Shown one piece after another: positions 23,808 through 49,019 of a stretch of 64,000 bases of DNA. A program made the translations under genes and the position numbers. Position 1 is the first letter of the stretch. Every line of letters begins with the position of its first letter. This DNA is from a virus: positions 124,001-188,000 of IMG/VR virus record IMGVR_UViG_3300048927_000250; one strand, written 5' to 3'. Under the pieces are notes generated by a model, which saw nothing but the letters and a program-made list of their open reading frames with translations, ran no database searches and was not told the DNA's origin.

Positions 23808-24338
23808 ATGCCTGTTTCAAAGAACAACCGTAAAACCAAAAAGGTCAAAAAACAAAAAGGTTACCGCCCGGTTCGTACACTTCCGGGGTACAAGCTGGTT
23901 AAAGAAACCTGCCAGAAGATTGATGACATCTTGTTCGAGACTGCAAAGCTCGCCAAGATTGTGGGTGTGATGGAAGACCAGTTCTCTCCGGAACACAAGA
24001 TTGAATCGCAAGCGCACCTGCGGGCGATTATTGAAGTGCTGGCTCCGGGTAAAGCCATTGATGCACAGGGCGTGGAAGTGGAATACGCCGCCTTCCCACT
24101 GCGTGTCTCTGCGCTGGAAAAAGAAGCGGATAAGATTGCTGCGCGTGCGCACGCAGACGACCTGGAGTTCGTCCCGATTCTGAACATGGCTGAAAATTAC
24201 CTGTCCACCCTGATTACGGGTACCGGTGAAGCCATTTCTCAACTGGCCATTCTCGTTGACACTTACGCACCACGTGAAGACGGCGTGAGCGAAGTGCTGG
24301 AAAAGCAAAAGGAAGAAACTGATGTCCAACCTGCCTGA
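23808..24338 (+). CDS. Hypothetical protein with basic N-terminus (176 aa)
   Basis: A 176-residue protein with a Lys/Arg-rich first 25 residues (MPVSKNNRKTKKVKKQKGY) followed by an acidic helical body. The ribosome-binding site is AAGGAAG. It overlaps the next gene by 17 bases. The basic tail suggests binding to nucleic acid or to an acidic partner, perhaps the acidic N-terminus of the next protein; this is inference. Function unknown. Confidence 0.65.
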   Translation: MPVSKNNRKTKKVKKQKGYRPVRTLPGYKLVKETCQKIDDILFETAKLAKIVGVMEDQFSPEHKIESQAHLRAIIEVLAPGKAIDAQGVEVEYAAFPLRVSALEKEADKIAARAHADDLEFVPILNMAENYLSTLITGTGEAISQLAILVDTYAPREDGVSEVLEKQKEETDVQPA

Positions 24339-26145
24339 AGATACCCCGCCACTCCCGGCGGGTCTACGTCCGTTACCCGATACCGCATTTAAAGACGATG
24401 ATGCGGTCGTCGAAGTCGTCAGCCAGCAGCCGGAGATTGCTCAGGTGGCTGCTGAACCTGCTCCCCAGCAAACTGAACCTGTTGCTGATGCCCAACCCGT
24501 TCCTGAAGCGGTAACTGAAGCAACGGCGACTGCCACTGACCTACCGAAAGACGCCACCGTGTCTGACGATGATGCGCCAGTGGAACAGGCCCCAGAAGTG
24601 AGCGAAGTCGGGTTCTTCTTTGATGACGACAAAGTGGAAGGGAAAGTTGACCTTTCTCGTTCGCCATTAAAGGATGCGTCGAATAAGGCTAACTTCTCAG
24701 CGAACCTGTCTCTGCTGCGCACCACTCTGGAGGATTACTACCTCCGCGGTGAGAGCATGGGCGACATGGCGGGACTGGATGATTACAACTGGTTCCTGGC
24801 CATGCGTGATGCTATCGACTCGTCTCTCTCCGGTAAAGGTCTGACTGAAGCTGTGGTGCGTGACCAAGCGCACTGGGTGAACGAAATCGCCACCGGGAAG
24901 AAAGGGCGTGAACTTCGTCTGCGTAAGACCCTGTTCAAACGTCCTGAAGGTCAGAAGAACGGTCAGGCGTTGGTGGGCAGTCGTGCTACTGAAGCGTTCG
25001 TTACCGGTACAGGTATCGGTCACCCGGTTCAGGTTCCTCTGTGGCGCACCGGTATCTGGGTGACCATGCGTACCCCGTCTATCGGTTACCTGGCCGAGAT
25101 TGACCGTGCGCTGGCGTTTGCCCGTCCTGAGCTCGGCATGGACACGTCTGGGATGTTGAACTCCAACGAAGCGTTGCTGTTCGAAGAAATCCTGGTTGAT
25201 GCTGCACTGCGTCTGGTAACGTCTACCAGCTACCCGATTGCCTCTTCGCCGCTGGAACTGAAAGAAGTCATCAGTGCCCACGACAAAGACCAGTTAATCT
25301 GGGGGATGGCTGTGGCGGCGTGGCCGGATGGTACTGACATTGCGATTCCGTGTACTGACGGTGAATGTCGTCACACTGACCGCGTCTTTGCTTCTCTGCT
25401 GCGTATGTCCTGGGTGGATGAAGGTCGTCTCACCACGGCACAACGTACCCACATGGACCGCGCGGGTACCGGTCGTGTAACGGATGAAGACCTGGAGAAA
25501 TACCAGGCTGACTTCCTGACGCACGAGAACGAGTACTTCGAGTACAAGAGTCGTCGCTTCAACTTCTTCGTTTCCACGCTGGCAGAATACTTCGCAAACG
25601 GTCGTCAATGGATTAACTCCGTGAACCGTGCGCTGGTTGAAGCCATGGGTGAAGACCTGGAAGGGAATGACCAGAAGCGTGCTGCGCTAATCAACAGCCT
25701 GATTAGTTCAGAGCAACTCTGTCGTTACGGTCACTACATCCGTAACATCGAAATACCGAACCCGGAAGATGAAGACTCCCCTGACACCATCGACGGGGAA
25801 GATGAGATTCGCGATATCCTGAAACTGCTGTCCGCAGAACCGGCTACCGTGAACGAACTGTTGCGTGCGGTGGATAGCTATATCCAGAACAGCATGGTTT
25901 CCCTCATCGCCTCCATCAACGTGCCGTGCTCGGCGTGTGGTAAACTTCACCTGAACCGTGGAGGTGAAGCACGACTGATTCTGCCGTTCAATGCTGCACT
26001 GGGTTTTTTTACCCTTGCGCAACGCAAGATGGTTCACGCGGGGATTCAGCCGCTGACCGACCTTTCGACGTTAGGCATCCGGAATTTTGTACAACAGGTC
26101 TCGGCGAACGCGTCTATGGCGTCCTCGAGTCTGCCGGTAGCTTAA
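24322..26145 (+). CDS. 607-aa protein with CxxC motif; likely 0-frame product of a frameshift pair
   Basis: A 607-residue protein starting MSNLPEDTPPLPAGLR. The first 120 residues are acidic, Pro/Ala/Val/Thr-rich and probably disordered; the rest is helical. Near the end, VPCSACGKLHLNRGG gives a CxxC turn that could be half of a zinc site. Codons 562-563 (TTT TTT) lie in a run of seven T followed by a perfect stem-loop. The -1 frame from there stays open for 159 more codons. I therefore expect a minority 722-residue fusion product. Such pairs are typical of tail assembly chaperones, although the proteins are much larger than usual. Function unknown. Confidence 0.75.
   Translation: MSNLPEDTPPLPAGLRPLPDTAFKDDDAVVEVVSQQPEIAQVAAEPAPQQTEPVADAQPVPEAVTEATATATDLPKDATVSDDDAPVEQAPEVSEVGFFFDDDKVEGKVDLSRSPLKDASNKANFSANLSLLRTTLEDYYLRGESMGDMAGLDDYNWFLAMRDAIDSSLSGKGLTEAVVRDQAHWVNEIATGKKGRELRLRKTLFKRPEGQKNGQALVGSRATEAFVTGTGIGHPVQVPLWRTGIWVTMRTPSIGYLAEIDRALAFARPELGMDTSGMLNSNEALLFEEILVDAALRLVTSTSYPIASSPLELKEVISAHDKDQLIWGMAVAAWPDGTDIAIPCTDGECRHTDRVFASLLRMSWVDEGRLTTAQRTHMDRAGTGRVTDEDLEKYQADFLTHENEYFEYKSRRFNFFVSTLAEYFANGRQWINSVNRALVEAMGEDLEGNDQKRAALINSLISSEQLCRYGHYIRNIEIPNPEDEDSPDTIDGEDEIRDILKLLSAEPATVNELLRAVDSYIQNSMVSLIASINVPCSACGKLHLNRGGEARLILPFNAALGFFTLAQRKMVHAGIQPLTDLSTLGIRNFVQQVSANASMASSSLPVA
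26004..26028 (+). promoter_or_regulatory. Candidate -1 programmed ribosomal frameshift site
   Basis: The run T TTT TTT (26004-26010) is a canonical X XXY YYZ slippery heptamer in the reading frame of the 607-residue gene (GGT TTT TTT ACC). Three bases later comes a perfect 6-bp stem CTTGCG / CGCAAG with loop CAA (26014-26028). A -1 slip enters a frame open to 26489. That frame has no ATG, GTG or TTG until 26241. Confidence 0.7.
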
Positions 26146-26240
26146 CGGAGTTTCAGGCCAAGTTAGCGCTGCGACGGGCGTACGACCTGGACCACCGTAT
26201 CTACACCCCCGAATACGCCGCCAAACATCCGTACGCTCCC

Positions 26241-26489
26241 ATGGAGATGCATAAGACGGAGATGGCGGCTAACCGAGGCATGTACGAGGCGTTAGTGGAA
26301 AAGTTCCGTGTCTACCGCATGAAGGACCTCTACGGGTATAACTACTCCGAGTTCCTTCTGTTACCGAATGACACGGCCCAGATGTTAATCCGGGATGCCA
26401 TCAAAGCGTCTGCTGCGGAAAACAAGCAAGACGCTGCTGCGGCGCAACTGGCTGATGAGTTGCGTAAGTTAGAAGGGAATAAGCAATAG
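26241..26489 (+). CDS. C-terminal extension reading frame, probably expressed by -1 frameshift
   Basis: The first in-frame ATG at 26241 would give 82 residues (MEMHKTEMAANRGM), but no ribosome-binding site precedes it. The same frame is open upstream to the slippery run at 26004. The segment between the upstream stop (26145) and 26241 reads like real coding sequence (ALRRAYDLDHRIYTPEYAA). No usual start codon lies between 26010 and 26240. I therefore read this as the C-terminal part of a 722-residue fusion with the 607-residue protein. It is helical and ends in an Ala/Lys/Glu-rich tail. Independent initiation at 26241 is the alternative. Confidence 0.6.
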   Translation: MEMHKTEMAANRGMYEALVEKFRVYRMKDLYGYNYSEFLLLPNDTAQMLIRDAIKASAAENKQDAAAAQLADELRKLEGNKQ

Positions 26490-26573: not shown

Positions 26574-27206
26574 ATGGAAGCTAATCTGATGGGGTCGAGA
26601 AAGAAATCAAACGTCGTCGTGGACATTGACTTCGCAAACGCTGTAGTGGGCGACAAAACCCTGAGCAGTAAGATAGGTGGGTATAACTTCGTCCGGAAGG
26701 CCGGGACCGGTACCGCAAACGGCGATGATGGCGTTGTGGATGACCCAACGTACGGGAAGTGTTACCGTTTTAATGGCGTGACGTATTTTGAGGACGCAAT
26801 ATTACGTCCAGGTATCTGGAATAAAGAGTATCGCATCACCATCAGCTTCCAGAGTTTGTCCTCTCGGGCAGAGGCGGTATTCGGTACCGGGGATTATAAC
26901 CCTTCTCCTCAAGTAGGGTCGTCACTTAGCATTAACAACTACGCCAGCCAATGGATACAGTACTTCATGTGCAGTGGGGCTTACCAGAGGGTGCTATTAG
27001 ACGGTGCACGTCCAGCTGTCATGGAAACTCTGGTAATCACCCGGCGTTCAACGGGGATAACCATCGAGAGTACTCGAACGGGGCAAAAGAACACCTACCC
27101 AGACTTTAATACAGGTGGTGAAACCTTCTGGCGTATTGGCGTGGCTCAGAACCCGGCATACTGCTTCACGGGACTGTTAAAGTCGTTGAAGATTGAGTTG
27201 CTCTAG
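26574..27206 (+). CDS. Lectin-like beta-sandwich protein, first of a tandem pair
   Basis: A 210-residue protein starting MEANLMGSRKKSN, with a GGGAG ribosome-binding site. The core pattern, V(V/L)(V/L)DI(D/N)FA...DPTYGKCY-F-G...YF..., is shared with the next gene, so the two are tandem paralogues. The alternating hydrophobic pattern and the closing FTGLLKSLKIELL strand look like a LamG/concanavalin-type jelly roll, as found in phage decoration and fibre proteins. A carbohydrate-binding or head/tail decoration role is inference. There is no signal peptide or membrane segment. Confidence 0.65.
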   Translation: MEANLMGSRKKSNVVVDIDFANAVVGDKTLSSKIGGYNFVRKAGTGTANGDDGVVDDPTYGKCYRFNGVTYFEDAILRPGIWNKEYRITISFQSLSSRAEAVFGTGDYNPSPQVGSSLSINNYASQWIQYFMCSGAYQRVLLDGARPAVMETLVITRRSTGITIESTRTGQKNTYPDFNTGGETFWRIGVAQNPAYCFTGLLKSLKIELL

Positions 27207-27217
27207 GGGAGTCAAAG

Positions 27218-27859
27218 ATGCTTGAATCTAACTTGTTCGGCGGGAAACACAAAAAAGTATTGTTGGACATCAACTTTGCTGATGCGGCCGTGGGCAGTAA
27301 AGTTATCACCGACTCTGGTCCCCTGGGGATACCGCTCACGCGTGCTGTCGTTGCAGGTGGTGCGAATGGAGACGGCGTAGTCAACGACCCCACGTATGGG
27401 AAGTGCTACTACTTCGATGGGTACGCGTATTTTCAGAACCTGTCACCGGTGTTGAATTTGGCGGACAGTAACTACGAGTTGACAATAGAGTTAGCGTTGG
27501 TGGGTAGTGGATTCATGTGCACGTTCGCTACGGGTGACTACCCGGCTGCCAACAACATCAAGAAAGGACTGGAGTTACTGCACAACCAACTCAGTCAGCC
27601 TATTCAGGTCTTCCAGACCACGGACGCGGGAGCGTTTCAACGCACTTACGGTTATGGTAGTGCCAATAACCAAATGTTGAAGCTCACGGTAAAAGAGGAC
27701 AGTACGAACATTACCGTCTCCAACAATCAAAACAGTAACCAGGCTGTTGCTGCCAGATTCCGGACTGGGGGTGATTCGTACCTGATGTTGGGGACGTCTC
27801 ACGGACTGGCTAACCGTTTCACGGGATACTTGAAGTCTCTACGGGTTGTCAAACTGTAA
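27218..27859 (+). CDS. Lectin-like beta-sandwich protein, second of a tandem pair
   Basis: A 213-residue protein starting MLESNLFGGKHKK with a GGGGAG ribosome-binding site, 11 bases after its paralogue. The shared core DPTYGKCY(R/Y)F-G and the C-terminal FTGYLKSLRVVKL are conserved. The middle differs considerably, as expected for a surface-exposed binding protein after duplication. Function as a decoration, adhesin or fibre-tip protein is inferred. Confidence 0.65.
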   Translation: MLESNLFGGKHKKVLLDINFADAAVGSKVITDSGPLGIPLTRAVVAGGANGDGVVNDPTYGKCYYFDGYAYFQNLSPVLNLADSNYELTIELALVGSGFMCTFATGDYPAANNIKKGLELLHNQLSQPIQVFQTTDAGAFQRTYGYGSANNQMLKLTVKEDSTNITVSNNQNSNQAVAARFRTGGDSYLMLGTSHGLANRFTGYLKSLRVVKL

Positions 27860-47048: not shown

Positions 47049-49019
47049 TTAGCGACCGAAGCCGTAACCACCACGAGAGTTGAAGGTGTTACCGTTGTAG
47101 TTACCGGAACCGCCGAAACGGTTGTCGAAGTAACCACGACGAACGCTGTCTTGCAGCAGACCTTCAGTCGGGATGGTCAGGCCAGCTTTATCCACCGCCT
47201 GAGTCAGTTTGTACAGCCAGTCAGGGTTAATCTGAACCAGGTACGCATGACCAGTGATGGTGTAGCTGCCGGTAACGGAAGCGATGATTTCTTCCATTTT
47301 CGCCAGACGTGCTTCTTCGCTGATGTTGCGGTTCCAGCACGCGTCATCCCACATGGCAATCGCTTCGAGGTCGCGGTTCTTCGCCAGACCGAAGTGGGTC
47401 ATCATGAAGAAACGGTCCAGTTCACGCAGGTCACGGATACGACCTTTAGAATCGGTCCAGTGGCCCAGCAGGATGATGCGCTCTTCCAGAGCACCGAACG
47501 GAGTAGCTTCATCGAGGTAATCTTCGATGACGCCGCCGGTCAGACGGTGTGCCGCTTCCCACAGCTGGATACGAGCCTGACGGTGGTTCGGGTGCTTATC
47601 GTCAGCCGCTTCCAGGTACAGACGCTGGGTACGCGTTTGCAGGCCGGATTTTTCGATGTGCAGGAAGACGTTCAGAGAATCTTCCTGAACGACCGCTTCG
47701 TTCAGCTCAGCCCACTCAACTTCTGATGGGTCAGCTGGAATCGGCGGGTCAAACTCGACCAGCTGCTCAACTTCCAGAGCACGTGCATCACGCAGGTCAG
47801 CAGAATCGCCAACCGGGCGCAGAGATTTCACCAGGCAGTCTTCACGCATCAGAGCCGATACGGTGGACAGACCCAGCAGGTTCATCTCGGTAGTGAAGTT
47901 GTTGTTGGACGCAATCTTGGTCAGGTTCAGACCCAGTGCGTAGATGTCCAGCTCATCAACTTCACGACGACGTGCACGGCTACCGCCACGACGACGACCG
48001 CCATCTTTTGGACCCAGGTAGATGTAGTCGGTGAAACCGTCAATCTGCACCAGGTTAGAGTTACGGTTACCTTCCAGGGCGTTTACCTGACCTTTGCGGC
48101 CCGCAGGACCGGTAGTGACTTGCAGAGACAGGTCACGACGCAGTGGTTCGCCAAAGACGGTAGAGTCATCACCCGGTGCGTAAGTTACGCGACCGCTGAC
48201 TTCGTAGTTCTCTGGAATGATATCTTCCAGCTTGAACTGGTGGTCACCCTGAGTCAGCTCATCGTACATGCTGTACGCTGCGGTGTTAATCAGGTTGGTG
48301 ATAACTTCATCCACTTCACGCTCGGAGTAACCGAAGGTGACCGGAACGGTTACCGCACCGAAGAGGACAACCGGTACATCAGCACCCAGGCCAACGTTTT
48401 TCTGCACCTGATTGATGACGGAACCTTTGAAGCCTTCGGTCCACACATCGCTCGGTACCGCAGAGAACACGTAACGGCGCTGACCTTCAGTCACTTCCTG
48501 CTTAGGCAGCTGCTGGCGACCCATCATGACCGCAGTGATTGCGCCGACGAATTTCACGTCGCCGTAGGTAAAGGCCGCAGCCAGGACAACTGAGTCCAGC
48601 TGGAAACCAGTCAGATGACCCGGAACCGGAATCAGCTGCCACTTAGTTTTGCCACCCATGCTCAGACGGTTTTTGTTCGCTTCGAGGAACTTGTTACCCG
48701 CGTCGATGAATTTACCCATCTCGTCGCCGCCAGCGGCAGACTGAATCAGCGGTTGACCAGGATTGAACATGTTCAGGATATCGTTCATTGCAGTTTTCCC
48801 TTTATAGGCTTCTGTATTAGTTTCGGTTTGTGGTACATGACGAGCTGCGACAACTTCTTCTTCGTGAGGAGCTGACGCTTGGGTATTCGGTTGCTGCTGC
48901 GAGTGCTTTTTGGCACTCTGGTGTTGGCGATACTGAGCTAACGGGTTAGGCGGGTTTTGGCGTTTGCCTTCACCTTCATCCTTATTACCGTGTTCACTAT
49001 CACCAGAATTCCAACCCAT
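47049..49019 (-). CDS. chmA: Chimallin-like phage nucleus shell protein
   Basis: A 656-residue protein with AAGGAG seven bases before the ATG. A polar N-terminal segment (about 1-75, rich in N, Q, H, E, K) is followed by a folded body. A short Arg-rich loop (RRRGGSRARRR, about 345-355) lies inside the body, and a Gly/Asn/Arg/Tyr-rich C-terminal tail ends RGGYGFGR. Length, flexible terminal segments and position next to the gp55-type RNAP gene all match chimallin (phiKZ gp54, 201phi2-1 gp105), whose lattice encloses phage DNA and excludes host nucleases. No single motif is diagnostic, so the assignment is by architecture and gene order. The N-terminal extension looks somewhat long. A promoter-like motif lies 112 bases upstream. 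Confidence 0.75.
   Translation of the reverse strand: MGWNSGDSEHGNKDEGEGKRQNPPNPLAQYRQHQSAKKHSQQQPNTQASAPHEEEVVAARHVPQTETNTEAYKGKTAMNDILNMFNPGQPLIQSAAGGDEMGKFIDAGNKFLEANKNRLSMGGKTKWQLIPVPGHLTGFQLDSVVLAAAFTYGDVKFVGAITAVMMGRQQLPKQEVTEGQRRYVFSAVPSDVWTEGFKGSVINQVQKNVGLGADVPVVLFGAVTVPVTFGYSEREVDEVITNLINTAAYSMYDELTQGDHQFKLEDIIPENYEVSGRVTYAPGDDSTVFGEPLRRDLSLQVTTGPAGRKGQVNALEGNRNSNLVQIDGFTDYIYLGPKDGGRRRGGSRARRREVDELDIYALGLNLTKIASNNNFTTEMNLLGLSTVSALMREDCLVKSLRPVGDSADLRDARALEVEQLVEFDPPIPADPSEVEWAELNEAVVQEDSLNVFLHIEKSGLQTRTQRLYLEAADDKHPNHRQARIQLWEAAHRLTGGVIEDYLDEATPFGALEERIILLGHWTDSKGRIRDLRELDRFFMMTHFGLAKNRDLEAIAMWDDACWNRNISEEARLAKMEEIIASVTGSYTITGHAYLVQINPDWLYKLTQAVDKAGLTIPTEGLLQDSVRRGYFDNRFGGSGNYNGNTFNSRGGYGFGR

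Follow-up and report, generated by a model that had tools for sequence, protein, structure and literature searches.

Organization of the locus and its putative slip site

The 64,000-nucleotide window covers bases 124001-188000 of a virus record 215,418 bases long. It belongs to a jumbo phage that encodes chimallin, forms a nucleus and is closely related to Erwinia phage PhiEaH1. Its placement among the nucleus-forming jumbo phages follows from the chimallin gene on the record (nuclear shell protein, phrog_4795, minus strand, window 47049-49019 or G000:171049-173019), and over the region described here the Erwinia phages PhiEaH1 and vB_Ea277G share ~91% DNA identity with the window. All other window features given below are on the plus strand. 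The locus centers on a 607-codon gene at 24322-26145 (stop included), delimited as an open reading frame and characterized through its homologues, AlphaFold2 (AF2) and Foldseek; its homologues are phiKZ gp77, 201phi2-1 gp136, PhiPA3 gp074, SPN3US_0039 and RAY gp267. It has a 17-nt overlap with an upstream gene (23808-24338) that holds the phiKZ gp78 position, which is taken by a small gene in the relatives shown with their upstream flank. The main chain carries two conserved cysteine pairs, C344 and C349 (25351-25368) and a CxxC, C536-C539 (25927-25938), the second of which lies ~23 residues N-terminal of the putative slip site. Neighbors of the gene are other virion genes. No tape-measure gene lies beside it, the best candidate being a 2222-aa tail protein at G000:49297-55965, ~92 kb away. 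Directly 3' of the locus, the ORFs at 26574-27206 and 27218-27859 are alike in length and sequence motifs, apparently as tandem duplicates; the first has a PHROG match to a virion structural protein, and the PhiEaH1 annotation names the counterparts of both as virion structural proteins.

A preliminary description of this DNA had predicted a -1 programmed frameshift near the 3' end of the 607-residue gene, on a T TTT TTT run in the correct phase, and both the coordinates and the phase proved right: the heptamer occupies 26004-26010 as X XXY YYZ, within the 0-frame reading GGT TTT TTT ACC (26002-26013), and encodes a Phe-Phe pair that is invariant among the non-redundant homologues described below. 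While the 0 frame ends at a TAA (26143-26145), which closes the 607-aa product, the -1 frame has no stop between 25969 and a TAG at 26487-26489, giving an extension of 159 aa (26010-26489) that forms a conserved, all-helical domain. As had been described, this frame holds no ATG, GTG or TTG between the slip site and 26241, and the ATG at 26241 has no Shine-Dalgarno match. The PhiEaH1 and vB_Ea277G annotations treat the 82-codon ORF that begins there (26241-26489) as a gene in its own right; it is probably just the 3' part of the extension. A fusion would join the 563 residues through the second Phe to the 159 of the extension, so the predicted length of 722 residues holds.

Taken from this one sequence, the signal is suggestive. 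Runs of seven T are not rare in the window (11 vs 12 expected), a 44-codon -1 overlap would be open by chance in the 607-aa gene with P = 0.03, and the hairpin that follows the T run after 3 nt (26014-26028; perfect 6-bp stem 26014-26019/26023-26028, loop CAA) turns up by chance alone in 6% of resamplings with synonymous codons. It is conservation, not the single-sequence signal, that makes the case for a predicted frameshift compelling.

Conservation of the site and coding constraint in the overlap

We compared 122 phylogenetically related loci, 26 of them from the window and named phages and 96 from IMG/VR contigs, of which 86 form a non-redundant set. The same frame layout was found in 122/122, with two codons at the site (two Phe codons in all but the six loci described below) 8-44 codons ahead of the 0-frame stop and a -1 frame that is open from the site, runs past the 0-frame stop by several hundred bases and enters a homologous domain. 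The site reads TTT TTY in 116/122 loci, and T TTT is retained in the remaining 6. Those six (L043, L119, L138, L143, L147 and L157) have lost the Phe-Phe pair, reading GTT TTT or CTT TTT; they are left out of the non-redundant set and dropped by the site scan, which takes open sites only, though their -1 frames are open too. They offer a natural series on the minimal slip motif. In a divergent IMG/VR group (L152-L155), the site reads TAT TTT TTT, with extensions of 180-202 codons and main chains of ~480-500 aa.

Within the non-redundant set the Phe-Phe pair is invariant, N TTT TTY occurs in 86/86 loci, and the full T TTT TTY in 73/86. All 86 use TTT as the first slip codon, compared with 459/1312 (35%) of Phe codons elsewhere, and in other Phe-Phe pairs of the same genes the first codon is TTC in 41/42. 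The base before the slip codons is T in 73/86 loci (85%), the share of codons that end in T being 28%. Alignment of homologues, which the preliminary description had proposed as a check, thus found the slip site and the -1 extension retained across very diverged relatives, and no homologue with an independent conserved start for the -1 frame, which in homologues without the T run it had named as counterevidence, was present among the loci examined. The putative slip site characterizes the phiKZ gp77 family as a whole and is not confined to a single phage.

The overlap itself bears the mark of two reading frames. Against an expectation obtained by resampling synonymous codons, 86/86 overlaps lack a stop in the -1 frame (42.8 expected), whereas the +1 control frame is open in 35 vs 31.9 expected, which is chance-like. 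Across 48 moderately diverged locus pairs, 20% of four-fold degenerate sites differ in the overlap vs 48% upstream, a contrast whose Fisher p of 9e-22 is indicative only, since pairs share members. A positional control gave the same picture, with silent divergence of 38-58% in upstream bins, 22% in the overlap and 51% beyond the 0-frame stop. The -1 frame is therefore under coding constraint through the overlap. These data also bear on the possibility that a single extra or missing T, whether through sequencing error or gene decay, has split what is really one gene. A one-base homopolymer change would look just so in one genome, but the layout recurs in many independently sequenced phages, the 0-frame C-terminus is conserved within the Erwinia/Serratia/Klebsiella group, and the overlap is constrained as coding sequence; this explanation, to which we give a negligible probability, is refuted by conservation.

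Start codons, stimulatory elements and the proposed mechanism of fusion

Annotation of all named relatives examined presents the locus as two separate genes, and the extension could accordingly be an independent gene with a start of its own that just overlaps or abuts the 607-aa gene; an ATG does lie close to where the domain begins in some relatives, for example SPLA10, with a weak AGG. Yet 5' of any such start the -1 frame already stays open and constrained, and independence would leave the TTT TTY heptamer unexplained. Start positions in the extensions vary, mostly lack a Shine-Dalgarno sequence, and show no conserved start codon or Shine-Dalgarno among the loci compared. They are practically absent in two loci, where the earliest possible start is codon 151 of 153 (L067) or 136 of 160 (L111), and the phiKZ extension has none until codon 85. 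In 77/86 loci there is also no start 5' of the slip site in the -1 frame. Counted from the slip site, the extension spans 149-202 codons and is nearly constant in length, while the overlap ranges from 8 to 44 codons; its length holds steady despite a shifting 0-frame stop, as if fusion set it. An independent start, lacking conservation, was rejected, and we regard a separate gene as highly improbable. An ACG start at 26145-26147, where homology in the downstream frame begins, was likewise considered and set aside: relatives have other codons there, and the -1 frame is constrained upstream of it.

Stimulatory elements are usual for -1 frameshifting, not obligatory. The hairpin noted in the preliminary description is present in the window as described, but a stem after the T run was found in only 2/86 loci and conservation of the hairpin is confined to the closest relatives; lacking conservation, the stem does not belong to the frameshift signal in general, and the hairpin was rejected as a conserved stimulator. 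No other downstream structure emerged as a conserved stimulator, folding energy being not below that of in-gene controls. An upstream Shine-Dalgarno stimulator was rejected as well, with no enrichment over chance (4/86 vs 3.7 expected).

On this comparative evidence, we consider a programmed frameshift at 26004-26010 almost certain. The simplest reading is that the two tRNA-Phe would slip in tandem by -1 on U UUU UUY. Most ribosomes would continue to 26145 and make the 607-aa protein, and a minority would slip on U UUU UUU by tandem tRNA-Phe re-pairing and read on to 26489, yielding a 722-aa protein composed of 563 shared residues and a 159-residue helical domain. We infer that the long form is the less abundant of the two and that the slip is ribosomal, not transcriptional. 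All loci retain the tetramer U UUU or U UUC, and a tetramer motif of this kind is a recognized minimal slip motif (PMC4066793).

Runs of seven T are described in PMC4066793 as prone to slippage and as depleted from E. coli genes whatever the frame, and the phages studied here encode their own multi-subunit RNA polymerases. A phage polymerase might therefore add a base on the T run, after which the fusion would be translated in frame. What tells against such transcriptional slippage is that the signal depends on phase and that the layout is kept though the run is often six T then C, or five T. The second slip codon, moreover, is TTT or TTC among the 86 loci; TTC would be permitted there because tRNA-Phe re-pairing allows either, and this freedom at the third base is not favored by homopolymer slippage. 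We judge a transcriptional origin improbable. That a ribosomal frameshift makes products of 607 and 722 aa is, to our reading of these alignments, very likely, whereas any chaperone function for them is an inference.

If so, an ~700-aa product has apparently been missed in every annotation examined of phiKZ and its relatives, which are among the best-studied giant phages, and the C-terminal part of this product stands listed as a small unrelated gene. A search of the open-access literature found no report of a frameshift in phiKZ or the chimalliviruses. Short and long chaperone forms made by frameshift are already known; what appears to be new is such a predicted site in the phiKZ gp77 family, absent from the annotations examined. 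A recoding site in 122 loci would provide a handle on the unassigned gp77 gene family and on the assembly of giant contractile tails and hubs.

Predicted products and comparison with known chaperone systems

Sequence searches of Pfam, PHROG and the PDB returned at most PHROGs of unknown function, or nothing significant, and none of 23 homologues had a Pfam match above cut-off, PF12322 included. Structure models took only the window and IMG/VR loci as input. AlphaFold2 modeled the main chain with confidence as a mixed alpha/beta fold (pLDDT 88.5) and the extension as helical (pLDDT 84, low for the first 16 residues). Beyond jumbo-phage homologues, the Foldseek hits of the main chain carried the name "T4-like baseplate hub assembly protein" or else "baseplate hub subunit" (prob 1.00, E-values of 4e-5 to 1e-2, target-normalized TM ~0.5); a fold search of the PDB with the main chain gave nothing significant. 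Profile comparison with T4 gp26-like proteins was weak (prob 15.6%), sequence profiles alone being not significant, and neither the T4 gp51 C-terminus nor the extension of Bacillus phage SP-15 matched the extension profile significantly.

A short and a long form, the latter with an extra helical C-terminal domain, together with the main-chain fold suggest a tail or hub chaperone pair, and the fold, the layout of the cysteine pairs and genomic parallels point to a pair of the G/GT kind. We therefore consider it probable, from models and analogy, that the 607- and 722-aa proteins are tail/baseplate-hub assembly chaperones, which would act like lambda gpG/gpGT on a chain of the T4 gp26/gp51 type. 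It is also conceivable, if unlikely, that the frameshift is real and its products serve elsewhere, as a virion protein that also has a minor, longer version, like gp10A/gp10B of phage T7, or as a head or inner-body assembly factor. The locus adjoins vRNAP/head genes (phiKZ gp79/gp80) and virion structural genes and is not part of a tail cluster, with no tape-measure neighbor, as a non-tail role would have it; against such a role stand the fold matches to hub-assembly proteins and the 201phi2-1 record, which marks the neighboring gp138 and gp139, but not gp135-gp137, as detected by mass spectrometry.

A conserved frameshift was reportedly described by Xu, Hendrix and Duda in 2004 and is grouped with the lambda gpG/gpGT tail assembly chaperones. 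The chaperone pair proposed here resembles lambda gpG/gpGT in that the long form adds a C-terminal domain. The lambda G protein, however, is small and helical, whereas the jumbo-phage main chain has ~480-735 aa, a mixed alpha/beta fold and two cysteine pairs, and its gene does not lie beside a tape-measure gene and carries the heptamer T TTT TTY. The 607-aa main chain thus falls outside the small, mainly helical G type. The preliminary description had likened the arrangement to tail assembly chaperones while finding a main chain of this size unusual; the idea of a frameshift pair is supported, but the large main chain fits an enlarged T4 gp26-like protein, not one of the lambda G type. We propose that the 607-aa gene belongs near the T4 gp26/gp51-type superfamily, and assign it to neither the G/GT nor the PF12322 family.

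PMC3004832 lists T4 gp26 and gp51 among the hub-assembly chaperones. In T4 (L163, NC_000866), each matches PF12322 across nearly the whole profile, which makes them paralogues. The jumbo-phage main chain may resemble PF12322-type proteins in its predicted fold, though its sequence is below Pfam detection and its length roughly double; T4 encodes its two paralogues in separate genes, with no frameshift layout. T4 gp26, SP-15 and the jumbo-phage proteins have in common a layout of two cysteine pairs and then Phe-Phe, the pairs being 82/84 and 187/190 in gp26 and C344/C349 and C536/C539 in the window. The gp26 chain ends a few residues past the Phe-Phe that follows its second cysteine pair, while gp51 has 48 residues past its PF12322 match.

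Two further phages have a PF12322 gene with an overlapping out-of-frame extension that lacks a good start. In SP-15 (L180, KT624200:33490-37212, at ~2214-2440), SP15_045 has an overlapping +1-frame extension, whose 3' part appears in the annotation as a short ORF of its own, SP15_046, and the gene has a tail tube gene on one side and a 1198-aa putative tail (tape-measure-like) gene on the other; it is a candidate +1 frameshift. Aeromonas phage phiA8-29 (L179, KY914485:133290-137000, reverse strand) offers another candidate frameshift: behind its PF12322 gene lies a -1 extension that carries the motif GFGLSFSEFCDMMP. The phiA8-29 extension has a GxSxxEFxxxP motif in common with the jumbo-phage extension (prob 66%), whereas the similarity of the SP-15 extension to it is not significant; the SP-15 and phiA8-29 chains are small (~250 aa), and the SP-15 shift would be +1. 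In Bacillus phage 0305phi8-36, orf143/144 likewise provide short and long chaperone forms, from two genes without a frameshift (PMC2147016).

The passages of PMC5009743 on G-T frameshifting describe it as broadly conserved among phages with long tails, "except T4", and make no mention of phiKZ-like phages. We tentatively suggest, as a possibility that we hold at somewhat less than even chances, that the T4 gp26/gp51-type proteins, the phiKZ gp77 family and the SP15_045-type proteins form one superfamily of contractile-tail chaperones in which a short form and a long form are always required, which jumbo phages would obtain from one frameshifted gene and T4 from two duplicated genes, gp26 as the short form and gp51 as the long. 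If true, this would be a testable answer to the apparent lack of a G/GT frameshift in T4.
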